Virus record (IMG/VR): IMGVR_UViG_3300032315_001584
Coordinates: 1 to 44,082 of that record
Origin: a virus
DNA length: 44,082 nucleotides
Reading direction: 5' to 3' (one strand)
The notes under the pieces were generated by a model. That model ran no database searches. It saw nothing but the letters and a program-made list of their open reading frames with translations, and was not told the DNA's origin. This document shows positions 6,241-44,082 of this stretch, piece after piece. A program made the translations under genes and the position numbers. Every line of letters begins with the position of its first letter. Within the stretch, counting starts at the first letter, position 1.

Positions 6241-6325
6241 TGGTGTTGTAGGTACTCCACGACACTAACCAGCCCTCTCTGGATTCACCGGGTGAAGTGT
6301 ATATACCAGCCCTATATTGGCGCAT
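6104..6325 (-). CDS. Possible 73-residue protein, convergent with the outer spanin
   Basis: Begins at an ATG that overlaps the stop of the DUF3987-like gene by 14 bases and reads 73 residues with a helical middle (AWMEEIAANRLLRAEL). No family recognised. Its N-terminal 'AGIYTSPGES' resembles 'AGIYSSPDET' in the linker of the ParB-methyltransferase protein, because both genes carry a near-repeat of about 28 bases. The 3' 137 bases run opposite a conserved part of the spanin gene, so this frame may be fortuitous. The overlap with the upstream stop favours a coupled gene. Confidence 0.35.
   Translation of the reverse strand: MRQYRAGIYTSPGESREGWLVSWSTYNTIREAWMEEIAANRLLRAELDTVRDKLRCADEPGRWSDPSRGFDHK
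6279..6310. repeat. Near-repeat with GTATATAC core, copy 1
   Basis: This segment contains TTCACCGGGTGAA followed by GTGTATATACCAGC. A near-identical copy lies at about 11505-11532, with TTCATCCGGTGAA followed by GAGTATATACCAGC. Each copy joins a short palindrome to the 8-base palindrome GTATATAC. Both sit in early-strand coding sequence in the same frame, giving similar peptides. Function unknown. Confidence 0.5.
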
Positions 6326-7577
6326 ATGCTCTTGCGCCTCCTCCGAGGATGTGGACTCTGAGCTGCCCGCCTTGAACCAAGAGGTCAATGGTGTTTTTAA
6401 TTTGTTGGTTAGGTACTTTTCCAACCAGAAATCGTATGAGAGCAGTTTCTTGAATAGGTTTCTTGGTGGCATTGAAGGTCTCCTTGATATGGATCAATAA
6501 CTCCTCGTTGGCATCCGCGTAGCCCTTCGTTACCATCTGAGAGAAGATTTGAGGCATGAGACGTTCCGTCTCATGGAGAAGGCTCAGCGCACTGTCCACA
6601 TGGTCCTCGGTGATCCTCAGGTCGTCCCGTTCTGAGGCAGAAAGACACATCATAATTTTGAGAAGGTGGACTGCCCTTCGTGCGTTGTAGTGGGTAAGTT
6701 TGGAGTGTTGTGGGATAGGGGCGAAGCCGTCCTGTGCAATTGACTCCCAGCGTTCAATCGCCTCGGGAGTGAGATAGAAGTCCCCATTGAGGGCTGCTAT
6801 TCTGCCAAGGTCGTGGCGGAGGTGTTCGTAAGTGTGAACGGAGCGAGTGGTGTTTTCGAATAGGGAGACATACTTTCCTTCCCCTGCGTAAACCAAGACG
6901 AGTCGGGAAGTAAAGCCCATACCGAAGGCTGCGTCGGGTAGCAGAATATCAAGGTACTTTGGTTGTGTTCCTGCGATGATGGTGAGGTGTGGGTGTTCAA
7001 TTCGCTTTTCGCCATGTTGCCTCGTTACATCAGAGAAGATTTTTCCACAGTCGTACAGGTCGTTGAGGATGTTGAACCAAGCATTATCATACTGTGGAAC
7101 CAGATTACCGAACTCAGGGCTAGCACAAAGGAGAGAATGATATACGATAGGAACAGAACCGCTAACGTCCACCTTTCTTGCTTCAATGAGCGTATCAATG
7201 AGTCCTGCTCTTGTAACTGCGCTTGGGGCAATTCTAAGTCCCTCCACGGATTGCCAGAGATGGAGCACTTCGTTGATGATGACACTTTTTCCTACTCCTG
7301 GTGGTGAAACTAAAAGGACAAACATATTCGGGGCAAGGGAACCTCGTACAGTTCTGAGGGTACATCGACGCTCCAGCGCCCCAGAGATAGTCGAGAGGGC
7401 TGCCCACCGCCTCCAAAGCGGTGGGACTCCCATGTGTTGAGTGTAGGCGAAGAATCCGCCTACCCAGGACTTTAATTTTCTTTTCTCTGGCACGTTGGGG
7501 GCCTTTGGAGAGGGGATGAAATGTTCAATATAACGCCCGTACACGGGCGTTTTGTTGGGGGGATACACGGATACCAC
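6312..7577 (-). CDS. DUF3987-like replicative helicase/ATPase
   Basis: 421 residues. Walker A SPPGVGKS at residues 91-98 follows the hydrophobic strand 'NMFVLLV'. A 'WAALSTISGALERR' segment upstream and an acidic strand followed by a conserved 'IIAGTQP' downstream fit the DUF3987/YfjI-type ATPases often found as phage helicases beside polymerases. The C terminus (VPNQQIKNTIDLLVQGGQL) looks like a winged helix. The start is taken as GTG at 7577 because no in-frame ATG occurs before residue 49. The ribosome site is weak. The gene follows the polymerase with a 50-base gap and carries an 18-base palindromic sequence (6557-6574) that recurs in the non-coding module at 19342. Helicase activity is inferred from family and context. 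Confidence 0.7.
   Translation of the reverse strand: MVSVYPPNKTPVYGRYIEHFIPSPKAPNVPEKRKLKSWVGGFFAYTQHMGVPPLWRRWAALSTISGALERRCTLRTVRGSLAPNMFVLLVSPPGVGKSVIINEVLHLWQSVEGLRIAPSAVTRAGLIDTLIEARKVDVSGSVPIVYHSLLCASPEFGNLVPQYDNAWFNILNDLYDCGKIFSDVTRQHGEKRIEHPHLTIIAGTQPKYLDILLPDAAFGMGFTSRLVLVYAGEGKYVSLFENTTRSVHTYEHLRHDLGRIAALNGDFYLTPEAIERWESIAQDGFAPIPQHSKLTHYNARRAVHLLKIMMCLSASERDDLRITEDHVDSALSLLHETERLMPQIFSQMVTKGYADANEELLIHIKETFNATKKPIQETALIRFLVGKVPNQQIKNTIDLLVQGGQLRVHILGGGARAYAPI
6557..6574. repeat. 18-base palindromic element shared with the 19.3-kb module
   Basis: TGAGACGTTCCGTCTCAT occurs here inside the helicase gene and again at 19342-19359. It is an inverted repeat of TGAGACG around TTC. By simple counting, an exact 18-base match in a 44-kb sequence is unlikely by chance, though hairpin-forming sequences are less independent. 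Confidence 0.6.
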
Positions 7578-7627: not shown

Positions 7628-9139
7628 TTATTTGAACGTCCTAGCCAACAATGCGCCCAAGCCATTAACCCGCTCCCCAGGCCCTTTGCGGTTCTCTCCC
7701 TTGGAGAGTTTACGAAGCCCAAAAGGGTTAGAAGGGGACTCTTTCCCCCAGTTCCAACCGATGTTGGCCTCGGAAGGAATGGCGAAGGAGGAACCGTCGA
7801 GGAGAATGATGGGTTTGGAGAGGATGGTGGAGGCCTCGGCGACGAGCGCGTCGTCGTTCTCAGGGTACTCAAAAACCACTGCGTCGTGGATCTGCGCAAG
7901 GAGTTTCACCTTCCCCCAAGCCCAGAGGCGACACACCCCTGCGTTCATGTAGTCCGCGATAAGGCTCTGAGGAACATAGGCCACAGCCTCACGAATAGTT
8001 GCATTGTCCCCGAGTCGAGAGAGGAATGTCCTTCGACGACCAAAGGGTGTGGTGAGAACTCCTGTACTCTGAAGCCTCGTCGCGGTTTTTTGGTGCCAGA
8101 GTGAAATGCCTGGAAATGCTCGAAAGTAGCCCCGTTGGAAAGACTCCATAATTGGAACTTCAATCTTGAGGTGTTTTGCCATTGTGCGAGGAGTGCCAAG
8201 ATAATTGCTTCCATGTCCTCCGCGTTTTGCCATGTCTCGGTAAGAGTAGTTGCGGTAGCATTGTCCGTCTGCAAGCTTCCTATCGGACGAAAAATCTCCT
8301 GTCCATGCTTTATCTGGCCAGATGAGGCGTGTAACAGTAGTGTGCAGGTCTCCAGAGTTACAGGCGTGTTGATAACCCTCATCTCCTGATAGAAACGCGA
8401 CGGCGCGGGACTCAGCTTGCTCCAAGTCGATGTATGCAAGCTTGTGACCAGGGGACGCCACAAAGATGGGCCTGATTTCCTCGGTAAGATTTTGCGCATT
8501 CATCCCTCCCCCGAAAGCATTTTTTGACGAACTCCAGCGACCAGTTTCTGTTCCTCCGACGTTGAAGGAGAAACGCATTCGAGAGTCACTGTCAATGCCG
8601 CTGCGCAGGACGGACAGCTTTTTGACGCAATCACGTCTGCCGAGAATGGCAAGGACGAGGGGGTTGGCAATCGCTGACAGCGATAACTTCTCCAGAGCTT
8701 CACGATCAACACTTACTTTCTCCTCTTTCTTTACTCTGTCATACTTTCTCTGTTCAGGGAGGCCAAGCTGTTCATAGAAGATTTTCTTTAGTTGTGGGAT
8801 GGAGTTGGCGTTGATCCCTTGGGGGTGCCCAAGGGCACGTCCGTAATTAAGTAGGATTTCTTCGTAAGCGTCTGCGTGGGAGGAGAGTGTCCGAACCATA
8901 TCATCTCGCGCAAACAAGTCCACTCGGATTCCCCTGAGTGCCATTTCCATAGCTGGCGCAAGACAAGCACGCTCGAAGTGGTAGATCCATCTTGTGTTTT
9001 CATCTAACTGCTTCTCCAAGACCTCTGACACTTCCGCAGTAACCATACAGTCTGCTGCGTTGTAGGCCCAGTAAGTGTGGGCCGCGGAGAGGGGGGTCTC
9101 CTCGTCGGAGATTGCTTCTAGGGGGATAATCTTAGCCAA
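7628..9139 (-). CDS. Family A DNA polymerase, palm/fingers with residual exonuclease motif III
   Basis: 503 residues from a TTG start at 9139 with GGAGG five bases upstream. Motif A is 'AYIDLEQAESR' (Asp238), motif B is 'RDMAKRGGHGSNYLG' (about 301-315), and motif C is QIHDAVVFE (His418-Asp419). Motif C has Ala where most family A enzymes have Glu. The N terminus contains 'YNAADCMVTAEV' (Tyr26, Asp30), which is the Exo III motif of a DnaQ-type proofreading domain. Exo I and II are not here: they lie in the UDG-fusion gene two genes upstream. The small gene 9132-9329 separates the two pieces. It probably replicates the phage genome together with the helicase downstream. Confidence 0.88.
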   Translation of the reverse strand: MAKIIPLEAISDEETPLSAAHTYWAYNAADCMVTAEVSEVLEKQLDENTRWIYHFERACLAPAMEMALRGIRVDLFARDDMVRTLSSHADAYEEILLNYGRALGHPQGINANSIPQLKKIFYEQLGLPEQRKYDRVKKEEKVSVDREALEKLSLSAIANPLVLAILGRRDCVKKLSVLRSGIDSDSRMRFSFNVGGTETGRWSSSKNAFGGGMNAQNLTEEIRPIFVASPGHKLAYIDLEQAESRAVAFLSGDEGYQHACNSGDLHTTVTRLIWPDKAWTGDFSSDRKLADGQCYRNYSYRDMAKRGGHGSNYLGTPRTMAKHLKIEVPIMESFQRGYFRAFPGISLWHQKTATRLQSTGVLTTPFGRRRTFLSRLGDNATIREAVAYVPQSLIADYMNAGVCRLWAWGKVKLLAQIHDAVVFEYPENDDALVAEASTILSKPIILLDGSSFAIPSEANIGWNWGKESPSNPFGLRKLSKGENRKGPGERVNGLGALLARTFK

Positions 9140-9329
9140 TGATACCTCCACAGTGTAGACACGTTCCGCCTTTGTGTCTAAAGGATGCCATTTCGATAAC
9201 ACAACTACATTTGAACCGCGGAGGTTCGTAGAGGTCTCGAAGGCGTTTTACTTCTTTCTCGAGGGAGGCAATTTTTTCCTCCATGTCTCGGACTATGAGA
9301 TCCGCATCGAGTTGTGGATGGTGGCTCAT
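9132..9329 (-). CDS. Coiled-coil plus Cys-rich (zinc-ribbon-like) small protein between exonuclease and polymerase genes
   Basis: 65 residues. The first 40 form a charged coiled coil (ADLIVRDMEEKIASLEKEVK). The end has four cysteines arranged C-x-C...C-x2-C (KCSCVIEM...GTCLHCGG), suitable for one zinc. Its ATG overlaps the stop of the UDG-exonuclease gene (ATGA) and its stop overlaps the polymerase TTG by 8 bases, so all three are tightly coupled. It sits where a normal polymerase would have the Exo II-Exo III connection. It may bridge the two halves of the polymerase, but that is inference. Confidence 0.75.
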   Translation of the reverse strand: MSHHPQLDADLIVRDMEEKIASLEKEVKRLRDLYEPPRFKCSCVIEMASFRHKGGTCLHCGGIIG

Positions 9330-10492
9330 GCGTCTTTCTTCTCCATTTTTGCCCTCGCGTCAGACAATTTGCGAAGGTGTTTCCACGAAGGGACGTCTGT
9401 GTATGCACTGCCTAAGAACCCCAACCCTTTCTCCATTTCAGGCTGGAGGGCATGTGCCATCAGCATAGTGTCGTGGATGGTGCCTTTCAGCACCATCCCC
9501 CAACATTTCCAGAGATACTGAAGGTCGTACTGCGCATTCTGGAGGACCTTCGGGTACGGGCTTTCTAGAACGGATCGTACCCAAGATAAGGCCGCTGACT
9601 CGGATGCTGCGTCTGGCCAATAGCTCCTGCCATCGAGGTCGCCCCCGACCTTCGAGCCGAATGCCCTGTTCCAGAATGGTACACAGATGGCGGTTTCTCT
9701 GGTCCCAAATCCGATGCAGGTAATAGTCCCGCCAAAGGTTTCGATGTCAACTGCGAGACGATCAGTGGGGTTAAATTTTTCGAAGGCAATTTGTTCCCAG
9801 GCCTTGAGGTCTTCAAGGTTTGGCTCAAGCCAAATAGTCCGTGACGGGAGAGGGAGGTCTGGGCTGACTTCGGGACCTGAAACCAATCGCTTCGCTTTTC
9901 GTAGATCTGCGAGGACAACAGGTCGATTAGAGTACTGCCGTATGATGCTGGATGGGTGGTAGGTAGGAATGACTCGTGGTCCTCCAGGAAGAAAGGTGCA
10001 AGGATAAGAATACCCTCGGAGCTTTCCAATACCGGAACTACGAAAAAGAGCCCAGGTTGGGATGTTTCCCATTCCAATAAGTAGTGCTGGTTTGTTGTCC
10101 ACCAGAGTTCGCCTGAGCACGCCGAGATGGGATAGGTAGTCAGGGTGCAGAAACATTCCGACCCCAGAGATGGGTGGGAAGTCGTAGGCTTGTGGCCAAG
10201 GAAACTCGGGGAATTGTTCAAGAAGTCTGGGTCGGACTCCAGGGTAAGTATGGACTGCTGCAGCTTTGGAGATACAGAAGGATCGAATGTCATCGTTTGG
10301 AGGCCTCAAGTTAAAGACGTTGGTGAAGTGACAACCTTTAGGGTCTATTCCACATTCCCTGAGTTGTCGGTGAAGTTCCTGCCCCGCGGAGCCGAAGAAT
10401 GGGCGACCTGCCAATTCATCAGCCTTGGAGTAGAAATCCCCAATCAGAGACAGCCTTACTGTCTCAAGGGGAGGGTTAGTTGTGCTTGACAC
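9326..10492 (-). CDS. Uracil-DNA-glycosylase-like domain fused to DnaQ-type exonuclease (motifs I and II)
   Basis: 388 residues from a GTG start (10492) with GAGGAA upstream; longer in-frame starts run into the preceding gene. Residues about 13-185 form a UDG-superfamily domain: GRPFFGSAG at 29-37, 'TNVFNLRPPND' at 57-67 and 'IPTYHPSS' at 175-182. The catalytic first motif is altered (IGDFYS instead of the GEAPG-like form of family 4), so glycosylase activity is uncertain. Residues 245-370 carry Exo I 'AVDIET' (Asp249, Glu251) and Exo II 'QNAQYDLQYL' (Asp323), then 'YTDVPSWK'. The Exo III motif is missing and is found at the N terminus of the polymerase. In related phage polymerases these parts are joined in one chain. 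Confidence 0.8.
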   Translation of the reverse strand: MSSTTNPPLETVRLSLIGDFYSKADELAGRPFFGSAGQELHRQLRECGIDPKGCHFTNVFNLRPPNDDIRSFCISKAAAVHTYPGVRPRLLEQFPEFPWPQAYDFPPISGVGMFLHPDYLSHLGVLRRTLVDNKPALLIGMGNIPTWALFRSSGIGKLRGYSYPCTFLPGGPRVIPTYHPSSIIRQYSNRPVVLADLRKAKRLVSGPEVSPDLPLPSRTIWLEPNLEDLKAWEQIAFEKFNPTDRLAVDIETFGGTITCIGFGTRETAICVPFWNRAFGSKVGGDLDGRSYWPDAASESAALSWVRSVLESPYPKVLQNAQYDLQYLWKCWGMVLKGTIHDTMLMAHALQPEMEKGLGFLGSAYTDVPSWKHLRKLSDARAKMEKKDA

Positions 10493-10706
10493 CTGCGGTG
10501 AGTTCCTCGAGGAGACGGTGGGCGGTGTAGGTGAAGTTGCCAAGGCGGAACTGGTCGATTTTGTTTTCCTTGGAAAGGGCAATCATGACTGTCATTGAGG
10601 CGAGAAGAAGGCGTTCTGCGACTGCAGCCTGTTCGGGTGCAGTCTTCACAGAGGCCCTGATCTTCTCTACGAGGTCTTTGACACTGTTTTCAAGATTAAG
10701 GGACAA
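10476..10706 (-). CDS. Small helical protein, TTG start, function unknown
   Basis: 76 residues read from a TTG at 10706 that overlaps the methyltransferase stop; an AAGGA-like site lies about 9 bases upstream. The protein is helical, with Glu/Lys/Ala-rich sequence and a 'LLLASMTVMIALSKENKIDQ' stretch. No family recognised. The stop overlaps the GTG of the UDG-fusion gene by 17 bases. The frame extends farther upstream inside the methyltransferase gene, but that part is low in plausibility. Confidence in the frame is good because it fills an otherwise empty coupled slot. Confidence 0.6.
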   Translation of the reverse strand: MSLNLENSVKDLVEKIRASVKTAPEQAAVAERLLLASMTVMIALSKENKIDQFRLGNFTYTAHRLLEELTAGVKHN

Positions 10707-12129
10707 GGGGGGATGGTCCTTTGTTGGAGAGGTAAATTGAAAGCTTAGTTGCACTGGTTGCGGCGACTTCGGGGTTGAGTTCAACCCCCAAACCGCTGTT
10801 CGCTCCAAGTGCTGCTGCAGCACGCACTGCTGTCCCAGAGCCGCATGTTGGGTCCAGGAGATCTGTGTGCTCCGTGACGACCATGGAGAGAAAGTATTCC
10901 AATACTTCCTGAGGTTTTGCAGAAACATGGGCTTCTTTGTTCCTAGCTATGGGGGCAGCAAAGAGGTCATTCTTCAGGGTGAGGATTTGACGATCACCCC
11001 TTGAACAGAAGAGGGCTGTTTCGTAGACGTGCTTGGGCCGCCTACGAACGTCCGAAGCAATTCCACTCCCACAGCTCTTGTGCCAGATCAGTGGGTAGGG
11101 AACCACGAACCACCCGCCCTCCTCGAGGGTCTGCACCAGCTCATAGTGGTACTTCATGGAGTACCAGAAGACCATGTGGGCGGAAGGGGTGAGGAGTTCG
11201 TCCTGATGGCGCATTAAGTTGTGTACAAGTCTCCAAAAGACCTCTGGTGAGTCTCCGTACTGAGAGTCGTCTGCTTTGGCACCACCTTGGTCGGACTTAT
11301 CGAAGTTGATGCCATACGGAAAGTCGCAGTGTAGTAAGTTGAACTTTCTCTTGAAGGCTCCCTGTTCGAGCAGCGATAAGAAGTCCCCAGAGACGATGCG
11401 GAATGGAGAAGGCTTCGTTGGAGACGGGCGAGGTTCAGAAGGCTCACCGCGAGGGCTATCCGGAGCCTCCGATGGTGAGGGGGAAGGGTCTCCAGGGGTG
11501 GATGTTTCATCCGGTGAAGAGTATATACCAGCACCTTGCTCTCCCACGGGGCTGAAAAATTCATCCTCAAGTCCGTCATCGTCTAGGTTCTCCTTCGCCA
11601 TTGCCGACTCAAGGTCGAGGGCTCTTCGTCGACGTAGAAGGTCGGCGGCGCTCCCACAACTGCCGCAAGCTGCCACTTTGGTATCTCCAAGCCTGAGTGC
11701 CTGTCCCACGAGGATGCTGTTGGAGATAGTACCAGCGGACAGTCCACAATACTCAGCGGTATCACCTTGGCTCCATGTTGGAGAATTAGCGGTCTGCAGT
11801 TCGTGAAGTTCGAGTACTGCAAGTGCATTCTCCTGCCATGATAGGTCAACTCGACGTAAATTTTCATCCAACTCAACGAGTCTTTTTTCAGAAAGGTCGA
11901 GAGCCTCATAGTATCTCGCCAAGATGGATGTACGACCCAGAAACCTGCAAGCCTCCAACCTGCGTCGTCCAGCGAGGAGGTTGTTTTCTTTATCCAAGAT
12001 GACCGCGTTGAGTTGTCCGATGCGCTCAATACTTCCTGCAAGCTCTTCAACGCCTTTAAGTGTTTTGCGCTGCCGATTTGAATCATCGACTTTGACCTCC
12101 GAGATAGGGATGAGGAAGGAATGGTTCAT
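10696..12129 (-). CDS. ParB-like domain fused to a DNA methyltransferase
   Basis: 477 residues; ATG with GGAG 7 bases upstream. Residues 1-180 are ParB/Srx-like: 'NAVILDKENNLLAGRRRLEA' with GRRR at 54-57, then helices including a probable helix-turn-helix (about 118-145). A Pro/Ser/Asp-rich linker covers 190-243. Residues 244-470 are an amino-methyltransferase with motif IV DFPY at 269-272 (usual form DPPY), 'SAKPQEVLEYF' at 403-413, and motif I 'DPTCGSGTAVRAA' at 426-438. The order IV then I is that of beta-class enzymes. It probably methylates adenine or cytosine at a specific site, which could protect phage DNA or mark operators. The Phe in DFPY is uncommon. The target site cannot be told from sequence. 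Confidence 0.82.
   Translation of the reverse strand: MNHSFLIPISEVKVDDSNRQRKTLKGVEELAGSIERIGQLNAVILDKENNLLAGRRRLEACRFLGRTSILARYYEALDLSEKRLVELDENLRRVDLSWQENALAVLELHELQTANSPTWSQGDTAEYCGLSAGTISNSILVGQALRLGDTKVAACGSCGSAADLLRRRRALDLESAMAKENLDDDGLEDEFFSPVGEQGAGIYSSPDETSTPGDPSPSPSEAPDSPRGEPSEPRPSPTKPSPFRIVSGDFLSLLEQGAFKRKFNLLHCDFPYGINFDKSDQGGAKADDSQYGDSPEVFWRLVHNLMRHQDELLTPSAHMVFWYSMKYHYELVQTLEEGGWFVVPYPLIWHKSCGSGIASDVRRRPKHVYETALFCSRGDRQILTLKNDLFAAPIARNKEAHVSAKPQEVLEYFLSMVVTEHTDLLDPTCGSGTAVRAAAALGANSGLGVELNPEVAATSATKLSIYLSNKGPSPLVP
11505..11535. repeat. Near-repeat with GTATATAC core, copy 2
   Basis: Inside the linker of the ParB-methyltransferase gene. TTCATCCGGTGAA is followed by GAGTATATACCAGC, matching the element at 6279-6310 in nearly every position. 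The codon frame is the same in both places. Confidence 0.5.
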
Positions 12130-15821: not shown

Positions 15822-15866
15822 ATTATATGCGATTTTAACACCCCTCGCAATCAAAATCGACAAGGG
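15822..15866 (-). promoter_or_regulatory. Early promoter A (sigma70-like with conserved upstream block)
   Basis: On the minus strand -35 TTGCGA (15850-15845) and -10 TATAAT (15827-15822) are 17 bases apart. The preceding bases read CCCTTGTCGATTTTGA, nearly the same as at promoters B and C, and GGGGTGT directly follows the -35. Transcription would start about 60 bases before the gene at 15759. Confidence 0.85.
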
Positions 15867-15878
15867 ATGAGTTATTTT

Positions 15879-16157
15879 TTAGAGGTCTTCAAGAAGAGAG
15901 GCGAGGTCGGGGACGGCTCCTTTGCCTTTCGCAATTGCCTTCTTAGCGTTGACTCTGCGTCCTGCAGTTTTAGCCTCAGAGTCTGCAGCAACAAAATTTT
16001 GTCTCTGCTGTCGCAGTTCCGCCACGATGGAGTTAAGCTCAATCCGAGTAAGACTGAGTGGATCTCGTCCGAAAAGCGATTGGAGTGACGGAGGGACTCC
16101 TCCAAGGGCATCGAGTTGAACCTCTGTTCCGAGAGGGGCTTCTTGTTCTTCATTCAA
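15879..16157 (-). CDS. Small helical phage protein, TTG start
   Basis: 92 residues from a TTG at 16157 with GGAG 6 bases upstream. The pattern 'DPLSLTRIELNSIVAELRQQ' followed by Lys/Ala-rich helix and 'DLASLLEDL' resembles a frequently seen but uncharacterised phage protein. An alternative frame starts at the ATG at 16153 but gives a poor Ser/Leu/Arg-rich translation. It overlaps the ribbon-helix-helix gene by 8 bases. Promoter A lies just past its stop. Confidence 0.65.
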   Translation of the reverse strand: MNEEQEAPLGTEVQLDALGGVPPSLQSLFGRDPLSLTRIELNSIVAELRQQRQNFVAADSEAKTAGRRVNAKKAIAKGKGAVPDLASLLEDL

Positions 16158-16350
16158 AGTCTTTCTCCTTTACACTGGGTGCCTTCCCCGCCTTCTTTTC
16201 AAGGCGTAACTCGAGTCGATCAAGGTGCGCCTTGACAAGGGTCCTGATGACTAGGTTGTACGGCTTGCGCGGGTAGAAGGTCTCGAGGCGTTCTAGATCG
16301 CCCTCTTGAAGGCGAATGAGGAAGGGCTTGGTGAGAGAACTTTTAACCAT
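16150..16350 (-). CDS. Ribbon-helix-helix-like DNA-binding protein
   Basis: 66 residues. 'SLTKPFLIRLQEGDLERLE' followed by 'YNLVIRTLVKAHLDRLELRL' has the strand-helix-helix pattern of Arc/MetJ-type regulators, which bind inverted-repeat operators as dimers of dimers. It could regulate early or late transcription; the TGCGACA-type sites at 23.4-23.6 kb are one possible target, by inference. A strong terminator lies immediately upstream of its ribosome site, so its expression may depend on read-through. Confidence 0.6.
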   Translation of the reverse strand: MVKSSLTKPFLIRLQEGDLERLETFYPRKPYNLVIRTLVKAHLDRLELRLEKKAGKAPSVKEKDFE

Positions 16351-18789: not shown

Positions 18790-18957
18790 TTACGAGGTGT
18801 GGGTGATTTGCTTATTGGCGTGCTTCATCCAACAAGTTGGGAAATCTGATCCATAGGTGGCACTCACAGGCATCCGTCCGTGGGCAAACTCAAAACGACC
18901 CGTCTTCGGGGCGTCCTTCATCACTTCCTCTTTCTCTTCTTTCTCTTCATCAAACAT
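18790..18957 (-). CDS. 55-residue charged protein, first gene after promoter C
   Basis: GGAGG lies 6 bases before an ATG at 18957. The peptide starts with an acidic/Lys run (FDEEKEEKEEVMKD) and continues 'GRFEFAHGRMPVSATYGSDF', 'PTCWMKHANKQ'. No family recognised. Its strong ribosome site and place right behind promoter C and ahead of a hairpin suggest an abundant early product, perhaps acting on the host. That role is inference. Confidence 0.7.
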   Translation of the reverse strand: MFDEEKEEKEEVMKDAPKTGRFEFAHGRMPVSATYGSDFPTCWMKHANKQITHTS

Positions 18958-19003: not shown

Positions 19004-19047
19004 ATTGTACATTGATTTAACACACCTCGCAACAAAAATCGACCAGG
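19004..19047 (-). promoter_or_regulatory. Early promoter C (sigma70-like with conserved upstream block)
   Basis: Minus strand: CCTGGTCGATTTTTG, -35 TTGCGA (19032-19027), 17-base spacer beginning GGTGTGT, -10 TACAAT (19009-19004). It reads into the 55-residue gene 47 bases downstream. The A/T-rich bases before the block (AAAAATATCCC) may act as an UP element. Confidence 0.88.
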
Positions 19048-19607
19048 AATTGGGATATTTTTCGTAGTTGGATTGGGACGTTGGGGGATTGTGGATTGTG
19101 TCTGGTGTCGCCTCATTTGTCCTCGTAGCCTATGATTTCCGACCCCCCCATCTTCCAATTCTGGTATGCCACTCCCCATCGGACCATAATTGCCATTTTT
19201 GGCAAAGGCCTCAAAGAAACAAGCAGAGAGACGAAGGCGGGTGGTTCTGAGGCTTTCTAGGAAGAGGGGCCTTGTCTATATATTCTAAAAAAAAAAATAA
19301 AAAACTATAACAACTTTTTTCTGTACAATTATTTCTCCGCGTGAGACGTTCCGTCTCATTCTTGCCACAGTGTGTCTCCAAAATGAGACGATGGTGGGGG
19401 AACAAGACGGGGGGTACCCACTTCATAGGCTACGAGGACAAACAAGACGAAATGAGACAAAACGCTACAACATCACAACGAAACAATGGCAGAAATCCGC
19501 CATTCCTGGCGCTTCGAGCCAGACCTTCGTGAACCTCCGCCGCGTTCCGCGGCGACTTACGCCGCCTACTCGCGTGAACCTCTGCGCCATAAATGGCGCT
19601 CTAAGGG
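19048..19607. other. 560-bp non-coding module: inverted repeats, A/T tracts, hairpin chain (origin or structured-RNA candidate)
   Basis: No convincing gene lies here. A 20-base perfect inverted repeat has arms at 19116-19135 (TTTGTCCTCGTAGCCTATGA) and 19423-19442. Between them are TTGCCA/TGGCAA (19190-19205), an A11 run with A/T-rich DNA (about 19269-19335), and TGAGACG-TTC-CGTCTCA (19342-19358). More TGAGAC copies follow at 19384 and 19453. Right of the repeat a series of small hairpins follows: AATGGC/GCCATT (19485-19504), CTGGC/GCCAG (19506-19522), GCCGCG/CGCGGC (19539-19553) competing with GCGGCG/CGCCGC (19549-19565), and GCGCCAT/ATGGCGC (19584-19599). Repeated sites beside an easily melted A/T tract fit a replication origin; the competing stems fit a regulatory RNA. 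Neither is shown. Confidence 0.65.
19342..19359. repeat. 18-base palindromic element, second copy
   Basis: Same 18 bases as 6557-6574 in the helicase gene. Here it lies just beside the A/T-rich tract, and its half-site TGAGAC recurs nearby at 19384 and 19453. Confidence 0.6.
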
Positions 19608-20186
19608 TTACCCTAAATCGTCGGGAAGAGGAAGAGATGCTACTTCGTTCTCAAGGTGGGTCTTCAACACCCTCTCAGGCCAAGAGATGTGCCAGAAGAG
19701 GGGTCCTTCGGAGTGGTGAGTCACCACTTCCCCGATGGACTCCACCTGAGTCATCCCATTCGCAGTGGGGGTGAGGGACTTACAGATTAAGACTAAGAAG
19801 AAGGGTCTTTGGTAGAAGGCGCCAGCGAGGCCTCCGTAGCGACGAACTTGTTCAATACCCGCGGCTTTAAGACTAAGTTTTGTTTCGAAGATAACTCCGA
19901 AAGAAGGAAAGAGTAAGAGGTGGTCAAGAATTCCAACGCCTTCGGGGCCTCGGAGGGATAATTGGAACTTGTATTCTGCCTCAGGGAAGGCCCTCTTTTG
20001 GAGGACGAGGATTTTTCCAATAGTGTTTTCATACTTAAGGCCATCCCTCTGTGAAGACTTTGGGCGTGAACTGATTGCCTCCTTTGGAGGAGTCCAATTC
20101 GCATCCCTCACCCATTCAGGTTTCCATACGAAGGAAGATGGGAAGAGGGAAGGGTCAAGCTTTGGAGTGAAGACCACGGAGACCAT
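19608..20186 (-). CDS. PD-(D/E)XK-type nuclease, small
   Basis: 192 residues. 'GILDHLLLFPSFGVIFETKLS' carries Asp followed 13 residues later by Glu-Thr-Lys, the PD-(D/E)XK core, and 'AGIEQVRRYGGLAGAF' supplies the downstream Gln helix seen in Holliday-junction resolvase and restriction-endonuclease-like folds. An N-terminal Pro/Trp-rich stretch precedes it. The ATG at 20186 has no clear ribosome site but lies inside the end of the upstream gene, so coupling is likely. It directly borders the 19.05-19.61-kb non-coding module, so nicking or resolving that element is possible. That is inference. Confidence 0.65.
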   Translation of the reverse strand: MVSVVFTPKLDPSLFPSSFVWKPEWVRDANWTPPKEAISSRPKSSQRDGLKYENTIGKILVLQKRAFPEAEYKFQLSLRGPEGVGILDHLLLFPSFGVIFETKLSLKAAGIEQVRRYGGLAGAFYQRPFFLVLICKSLTPTANGMTQVESIGEVVTHHSEGPLFWHISWPERVLKTHLENEVASLPLPDDLG

Positions 20187-43187: not shown

Positions 43188-44082
43188 ATGCCAATCAATC
43201 CCGTTGTTCAACAAGGCATTCTTCAGGCTCTCGCTGGAGGCGCAACGGGGAAGGTTCCTGCGCCGGGACCAGCGGCACTTGTGGCGAAGACGCCAGAGGA
43301 AGAAGACAAACCTGGCTTTTTTGATAGGATGTTCCCTGATCGTGACCCGAACACGGGGAAGCAAGGGGGGATTCTTGCAAATCCCCTTTTTCGTATCGGA
43401 CTGAACCTTCTTCAGCGCAGTGGACCCCAAAGGAGCCCAACATCCCTTGGACAGGTGATTGCGGGGAGTATCGGGGACTACGCACAGCAGAGAGATGCGG
43501 AGACTGTGGGCGCTGACAACTACATGCAGCTCAGGAACCGCCAGCAAGCTTGGGGCGATGACCAGGGGAAAAGAGAATGGGCGAAGGACATCAACTTTGA
43601 AGAACTCCTCGCTCTCGGAAATCCCACTGGGAACCCAGCGGCAACGAAGGTTCAGGTGCAGGGTCCACTGGCCGCTCCACGCCTTGGACCGATTCCAAAA
43701 GGTTATGCCTCCTACGCTCCGCTGATTTCGCAGGCGGAACAGCAAAACCCTGACCTTCCAAAGGGCCTCCTCCCTGCTCTCCTTGAACAAGAATCCTCTT
43801 TCCGCCCCGACGCAGTGGGGCCTGATGTGAAGGGGAAAGGTGGGAAGGTTTGGAACGCAAGAGGCATCGCGCAGTTCTCTCCTGACACCGCTGCGCGGTT
43901 TGGAATTGACCCGTTCAACCCAGAACAAGCCATCCCCACTGCGGCGATTTACCTTCGAGAAGAACTCCGCAAGGCGGGTGGTGACCTCGACAAGGCCCTC
44001 GCGATTTACGGAGGGGGTTTTGTCAATGGACAGATCACCCCTAATGGGCGGAAGTACATCGACGTAGTGAAGAGTCGGATGG
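43188..44082 (+). CDS. SLT-domain virion transglycosylase, 5' part (continues at 1-1421)
   Basis: Starts at the ATG at 43188 with AGAGG 5 bases upstream; no stop occurs before the window end, and the frame continues at base 3. The whole protein is 730 residues. Residues 1-180 are a leader with 'GFFDRMFPDRDPNTGKQGG'. Residues about 180-290 form a lytic-transglycosylase (SLT) domain: 'LLPALLEQESSFRPDAVG' with catalytic Glu202, 'ARGIAQFSPDTAARFG', 'TAAIYLREELRKAGGDLDKA' and then AIYGGG. It should cleave the peptidoglycan glycan strand as the phage delivers its DNA. Confidence 0.92.
   Translation, partial: MPINPVVQQGILQALAGGATGKVPAPGPAALVAKTPEEEDKPGFFDRMFPDRDPNTGKQGGILANPLFRIGLNLLQRSGPQRSPTSLGQVIAGSIGDYAQQRDAETVGADNYMQLRNRQQAWGDDQGKREWAKDINFEELLALGNPTGNPAATKVQVQGPLAAPRLGPIPKGYASYAPLISQAEQQNPDLPKGLLPALLEQESSFRPDAVGPDVKGKGGKVWNARGIAQFSPDTAARFGIDPFNPEQAIPTAAIYLREELRKAGGDLDKALAIYGGGFVNGQITPNGRKYIDVVKSRM
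43960..44082. repeat. 123-bp direct terminal repeat, right copy
   Basis: Exact copy of bases 1-123. Removing one copy joins the two halves of the SLT gene without changing a codon. Confidence 0.95.

Follow-up and report, generated by a model that had tools for sequence, protein, structure and literature searches.

The gap at 19048-19607 of the window, as we call the whole 44,082-base stretch of DNA analysed here (an IMG/VR virus record), lies between a predicted early promoter and the gene of a small nuclease (Table 1). An earlier note had described it as a single hairpin and inverted-repeat module. The features listed there are real, but they belong to two things of a distinct nature, namely a conserved DNA module that forms the core of the gap (19096-19462) and a lineage-specific cluster of small hairpins (19463-19607). 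The window carries an identical 123-bp repeat at 1-123 and 43960-44082, and therefore most likely represents a podophage genome, complete or nearly so, as a circular map. The minus strand carries the early genes, which begin at about 23.4 kb and extend down to 6.3 kb, and the plus strand the structural genes, from 24.1 kb. The early genes encode, among others, SSB, a Sak4-like ATPase, a Cas4-like exonuclease, a DUF3987 helicase/primase-like protein and both parts of a split family-A DNA polymerase. In this polymerase, a uracil-DNA glycosylase domain is fused to the 3'-5' exonuclease part (9326-10582, minus strand) and the polymerase domain is encoded by a separate gene (7628-9202). Another early gene encodes a DNA methylase with a fused ParB-like domain (10696-12129, minus strand).

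Table 1. Features of the locus and related genes, with positions in the window.
Feature	Position	Strand	Basis
DUF3987 AAA+ helicase/primase-associated protein, candidate initiator or helicase	6312..7577	-	PF13148 E 3.6e-19, phrog_14296
66-aa protein, possibly ribbon-helix-helix, further candidate for binding the 10-bp repeats	16150..16350	-	homologues
First small gene downstream of the promoter	18790..18957	-	ORF
Predicted early promoter: upstream box TGGTCGATTTTTGTTGCGAG, -35 TTGCGA, 17-bp spacer, -10 TACAAT	19004..19045	-	motif, relatives
Left arm, four 10-bp units TTGTGTCTGG TGTCGCCTCA TTTGTCCTCG TAGCCTATGA	19096..19135	+	sequence, matrix match
C7 tract just inside left arm	19143..19149	+	sequence
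A/T-rich stretch with A11 (19287-19297), candidate unwinding element	19271..19330		base composition
Palindrome TGAGACGTTCCGTCTCA, two facing repeat units	19342..19358		sequence
G5 and G6 tracts just inside right arm	19396..19414	+	sequence
Right arm, four 10-bp units TTTTGTCTCA TTTCGTCTTG TTTGTCCTCG TAGCCTATGA, read inward	19423..19462	-	sequence, matrix match
Small-palindrome array between nuclease stop and right arm, lineage-specific	19463..19607		folding, relatives
Small PD-(D/E)XK nuclease gene, 192 aa, upstream neighbour of the module	19608..20186	-	invariant residues

The module consists of two inverted arrays, each of four 10-bp units (TTTGnTCTnA three times, then TTGCCTATGA), around an A/T-rich stretch. 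The last 20 bp of the left arm constitute the perfect inverted repeat already noticed in the earlier note, TTTGTCCTCGTAGCCTATGA, which is present at 19116-19135 on the plus strand and, with a spacing of 287 bp, at 19423-19442 on the minus strand, each copy occurring once in the genome. Taken as 30-mers, the two arms match at 26 of 30 positions and form the strongest long-range inverted repeat of the window; eight Markov-1 versions of the genome gave at most 23. The 10-bp periodicity of the right arm is within the top 0.3% of 45-bp windows. The A11 and A/T-rich DNA described between the arms are also there: the 44 kb contain no A/T run of at least 9 besides the A11, and no 50-bp stretch with at least 78% A/T besides 19271-19320. 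TGAGAC, likewise reported as a repeated site, occurs three times on the plus strand and once on the minus strand of the gap, versus about 0.3 expected from the base rate; these occurrences belong to the units of the repeat array and do not form sites of their own.

A BLASTN search of the region 19048-19607 against the phage collection gave no match, and a single-protein scan with the window nuclease found no relatives. Two relatives of the window in IMG/VR, G1 (3300033571_025403) and G2 (3300037189_014561), were reached via the Sak4-like and portal proteins; their Sak4 proteins are 77–80% identical to that of the window. G2 also has an end repeat, of 87 bp. As the end repeats of the window and G2 are at different places, they look like assembly overlaps of circular maps, and we rejected these contig ends as true termini. 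When a matrix was built on two of the three genomes and run genome-wide on the third, both arms were the two best matches in each case. In the window, the right and left arms score 37.8 and 23.2 bits with the matrix from G1 and G2, and the best match outside the module 4.8 bits. The corresponding values are 28.9 and 23.5 versus 6.0 bits for G1, and 44.5 and 42.2 versus 8.1 bits for G2. The left arm reads TTTTCCCTAG TTTGCTCTAG TTTGATCTGA TTGCCTAGTG in G1 and TTCTGTCTCA TTTGATCTCA TTCGGTCTCA TTGCCTATGA in G2, and the outer array of G2 carries TGAGACATTCTGTCTCA, the counterpart of the window palindrome TGAGACGTTCCGTCTCA. The sole A/T run of at least 9 found in each of the window, G1 and G2 sits between the arms (A11, A19 and A18, respectively), with G and C tracts nearby; apart from these elements the interiors of the G1 and G2 modules can hardly be aligned with that of the window. 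The conservation of repeats in related phages, proposed earlier as a check on the locus, is thus observed for the arms and favours the reading as an origin.

The hairpin cluster behaves differently. The consecutive small palindromes that had been described are present at 19485-19607 and more structured than shuffles, with a z-score of -4.4 for the plus strand folded as DNA (none of 200 shuffles as good) and of -2.9 for the minus strand folded as RNA. A weak terminator-like hairpin is located on the minus strand (19504-19485), one being found versus two expected in shuffles. The distance from the nuclease stop codon to the arm is 34 bp in G1, 5 bp in G2 and about 145 bp in the window, the extra DNA of the window being this cluster. 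The mutually exclusive pairings of a CGCGGCG segment are visible in the sequence, but the palindrome array with its two folds is absent from both close relatives. A structured regulatory RNA, or a riboswitch-like leader with two exclusive folds, would account for the strong hairpins of 19485-19607 and for these pairings. However, Rfam gave no match at the gathering threshold on either strand of the region, and the conserved part of the locus is a DNA repeat array whose inverted arms are, across the module phages, roughly 75–330 bp apart. As the exclusive folds are not conserved, the proposal of a new structured RNA has nothing beyond the sequence in its favour, and we consider it very improbable. 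The segment is probably a local terminator or hairpin cluster. The idea that it is an interspersed repeat of the host found no support, its two-copy pattern occurring in six scattered unrelated genomes and nowhere in IMG/VR, by a search that would miss diverged copies.

The module was then searched for in more divergent phages, reached through Sak4 and DUF3987, using a detector of 30-base reverse-complement pairs 60–450 bp apart. The longest A/T run of the genome is found inside the best inverted repeat of Mel-JY34, ctMlz233 and the Desulfofustis phage and inside the second-best of Caulobacter phage Kuura; in VspS the best one surrounds a T8. In vir526 and ctLwi270, inverted arrays surround A/T-rich DNA without a long A/T run. 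Detector scores are 24–28, and no Markov version of the respective genome exceeds 23; the Kuura module scores 23, equal to the top of its own null. The inverted repeats of Tiera, PaMx41 and PaP2 did not exceed the shuffle null of the detector; arrays are seen by eye in PaMx41 and PaP2, with a 10–12-bp periodicity in PaMx41. LUZ24 was rejected as a member: a T10 and terminal repeats are present there, the module is not. In a prospective test of this detector, an alignment of three DUF3987 proteins led to 31 new IMG/VR loci, among which 17 contigs of at least 34 kb were taken whole (G009 minus its last 364 bases). The top or tied-top inverted repeat surrounds the longest A/T run in 13 of these 17; in G015 it surrounds an A/T-rich loop, and three contigs fail. 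Even allowing for the partial non-independence of related contigs and for A/T-rich gaps that may attract repeats, this is far beyond the chance of about 1% per genome (loop length over genome length, by plain arithmetic). As judged from these sequences, the module is a DNA element common to about two dozen distantly related phages.

Its place is fixed as well. In 24 of 25 genomes the module stands at the start of the early genes, with DUF3987 11.7–19.3 kb downstream of it in the same orientation; G/C tracts of at least 4 are found inside or beside it, also in 24 of 25. Since its sequence suffices to recognise it in some two dozen divergent genomes, and since its position relative to DUF3987 is fixed, it offers a direct experimental target and a marker in the annotation of uncultured phages. 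Of the 25 modules, 20 have the T run on the early-sense strand. G1 and G2 are among the exceptions, so that the module interior may have flipped there. An invertible DNA switch, in which recombination between the inverted repeats flips the interior, would explain why the strand of the A/T run relative to the early genes is opposite in these two phages to that in the window and most others. However, the polarity is read mainly from the A/T run, because the interiors are hardly alignable, 20 of 25 modules share the same polarity, and no recombinase was seen among the window proteins scanned. This is the least probable of the readings considered here.

A DUF3987 homologue is encoded by every module-bearing genome of the main set. 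DUF3987 is an AAA+ family and a predicted helicase of mobile elements, in which it occurs with primases and replaces known helicases (PMC5862659). The window protein displays weak similarity to the Cdc6 lid and to MCM, including a weak MCM7 match (E 0.006) in a profile search against the PDB; pentatricopeptide matches in the same search were judged spurious. This similarity is only a hint of function. AlphaFold with a three-sequence alignment gave no usable model of the protein (mean pLDDT 37).

Phased repeats to either side of readily melted DNA, placed where the early operon of a phage with its own replisome begins, fit an origin. We estimate at roughly 60% the probability that the core 19096-19462 is the replication origin of the phage. 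Of the readings of the inverted arrays and the A/T run this is also the one with the most support, and the candidate origin suggested earlier can be retained for the core. A phage initiator would bind the two inverted arrays of phased 10-bp units and, bound on both sides, would put strain on the A/T-rich stretch and its homopolymer run, so that the DNA opens and takes up a helicase. The DUF3987 AAA+ protein would be the most likely loader or helicase, and the module thus gives a candidate role to a family whose function is so far only predicted. Forks may depart both ways, using the split family-A polymerase that the phage encodes. Transcription of the leftward replication genes would start at the early promoter beside the left arm, on its outer side, and the hairpin cluster on the other side would probably end the nuclease transcript before the module.

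Lambda ori, R6K and similar iteron origins consist of tandem initiator-binding repeats beside an A/T-rich unwinding stretch, and the initiator gene commonly, not universally, adjoins or overlaps the origin. The module resembles them in its phased tandem repeats, four 10-bp units per arm to which an initiator would bind, and in the A/T-rich stretch beside these repeats. It differs in that its arrays come as inverted pairs flanking a homopolymer run, with units of about 8–12 bp, and in that the candidate initiator gene does not adjoin it: DUF3987 is 11.7 kb off in the window and 12–19 kb from the module in 23 of the 24 other genomes. Inverted initiator sites that flank an opening A/T-rich spacer are known from herpes simplex oriS, the SV40 core origin and archaeal ORB origins. 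The module is like these by analogy only: their initiators belong to other families, except for the weak Cdc6-lid and MCM similarity of the DUF3987 protein. Of 25 genomes, 9 have an extremum of cumulative GC skew no more than 1 kb from the module, versus about 2 expected; this is suggestive of a replication start at the module, GC skew being confounded by the nearby switch of coding strand. In the window, the nearest extremum is 10.7 kb away. The PaP2-like phage Shea persists as an episome (PMC13348215) and therefore needs an origin that works inside the cell.

The promoter said to bound the gap is indeed there on the minus strand, its -35 to -10 segment (TTGCGA-17-TACAAT) spanning 19032-19004. 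It belongs to a long conserved motif made up of TTGTCGATTTTCGTTGCAAG and a -10 box after it. The window has three copies of this motif (15844, 17024 and 19026, all leftward) and G1 and G2 two each, and in all three phages one copy adjoins the module on the outside. An additional binding site is suggested by the conserved upstream box, and the family of such boxes in these three phages suggests a phage- or host-specific activator or operator. The C-terminal part of the product of 18790-18957, downstream of the promoter, resembles by eye proteins in loci L005 (3848-4048) and L006 (3403-3615). The module itself could be an operator or a centromere-like site, with 10-bp arrays bound by a small ribbon-helix-helix protein that regulates the adjoining early promoter or segregates an episomal phage. 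A 10-bp phasing suits ribbon-helix-helix or ParR-type binding, and a 66-aa candidate, without a Pfam match, is conserved in the three close phages. However, this protein has homologues in G1 and G2 only and is missing from the more distant module phages of the set, the promoter copies at 15844 and 17024 have no arrays, and an operator would leave unexplained why the A/T run is kept between the arms in distant phages. Neither ParM nor ParA was seen among the subset of window proteins scanned, where the ParB-like domain fused to the DNA methylase is the sole Par-type match. This role is unlikely.

The module may also, or instead, be a genome terminus or packaging site. This is the main rival of the origin reading, and it is suggested by Kuura, whose published terminal-repeat end falls within the module. 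The arrays would then bind the small terminase or the neighbouring nuclease, and the large terminase would cut concatemers in or beside the module, which would mark the boundary of a direct terminal repeat, instead of or besides being an origin. The end region of Kuura (OQ067476) has the same layout as the window: where its early genes begin, four GGCAGTTnGG units are followed by an A12 and inverted units. It differs in that it contains the published terminus. The Kuura paper reports 606-bp direct terminal repeats found with PhageTerm and, in the available text, does not describe the module itself (PMC9959647). Base 1 of the Kuura record equals base 43208, between the A12 (43141) and the right array (43219); since the record repeats its first 606 bases at its end, the mature end falls between these two elements. 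The records of PaP2 (L030) and PaMx41 (L034) also begin inside the inverted-array region. Together with the Kuura end, these record starts indicate that the module may be a terminus, or both origin and terminus. At the record start of PaP2 and PaMx41, inverted CAAGGT arrays surround A/T-rich DNA with G tracts; these junction arrays bear on the episomal pseudolysogeny described for Shea.

The neighbouring nuclease, which weakly resembles the annotated small terminase Kuura_002, is another point in favour of a terminus. It had been assigned earlier to the PD-(D/E)XK fold; D88, E101 and K103 are invariant in an alignment of three phages (D88...E101-T-K103), as expected for such an enzyme, but no Pfam or PHROG family was reached. 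Against a terminus, only the Kuura end is stated as measured among module phages, and the literature found gave neither a measurement of the PaP2 and PaMx41 ends nor a reason for the record starts, PaP2-like Shea being called only terminally redundant (PMC13348215). The assemblies of the window and of the metagenome contigs continue across the module without a break, as could also happen with a collapsed terminal repeat. The SPP1 pac site and lambda cosB combine repeated binding boxes with bent or A-tract DNA. The module shares these boxes and A-tract DNA with them, but both sites lack symmetrical inverted arrays around the longest A/T run of the genome. To our knowledge, long A/T runs between inverted arrays are not a requirement of terminase sites. 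As the sole role of the module, a terminus is a real but minority possibility.

More tentatively still, the origin and the site of genome-end processing could be one inverted-array/poly-A structure served by a DUF3987 AAA+ initiator-helicase, forming a widespread and undescribed class; the likelihood of this proposal overlaps with that given above for the origin. If it is true, the start of replication would be mechanically coupled to the definition of the packaged ends. In the literature that our search found, with subscription journals largely outside its reach, the module is not described, nor is the replication start of podophages of this kind and its relation to the packaged ends.

Some minor observations can be added. 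The match between the window nuclease and Kuura_002 (L015, 750-2045) covers about 105 aa with 31.5% identity (E 5e-4), and the small-terminase annotation of the latter may deserve a check. In vir526 (L032), for which a Methanomicrobiales host is recorded, two neighbouring pairs of inverted TGCATTTT arrays are found in a non-coding gap at 393-996, and the layout may therefore reach viruses of archaea. Finally, a T22 homopolymer is located in the module of G019 (L093, 446-467), near the start of the contig, and such long homopolymers may break the assemblies of these phages.
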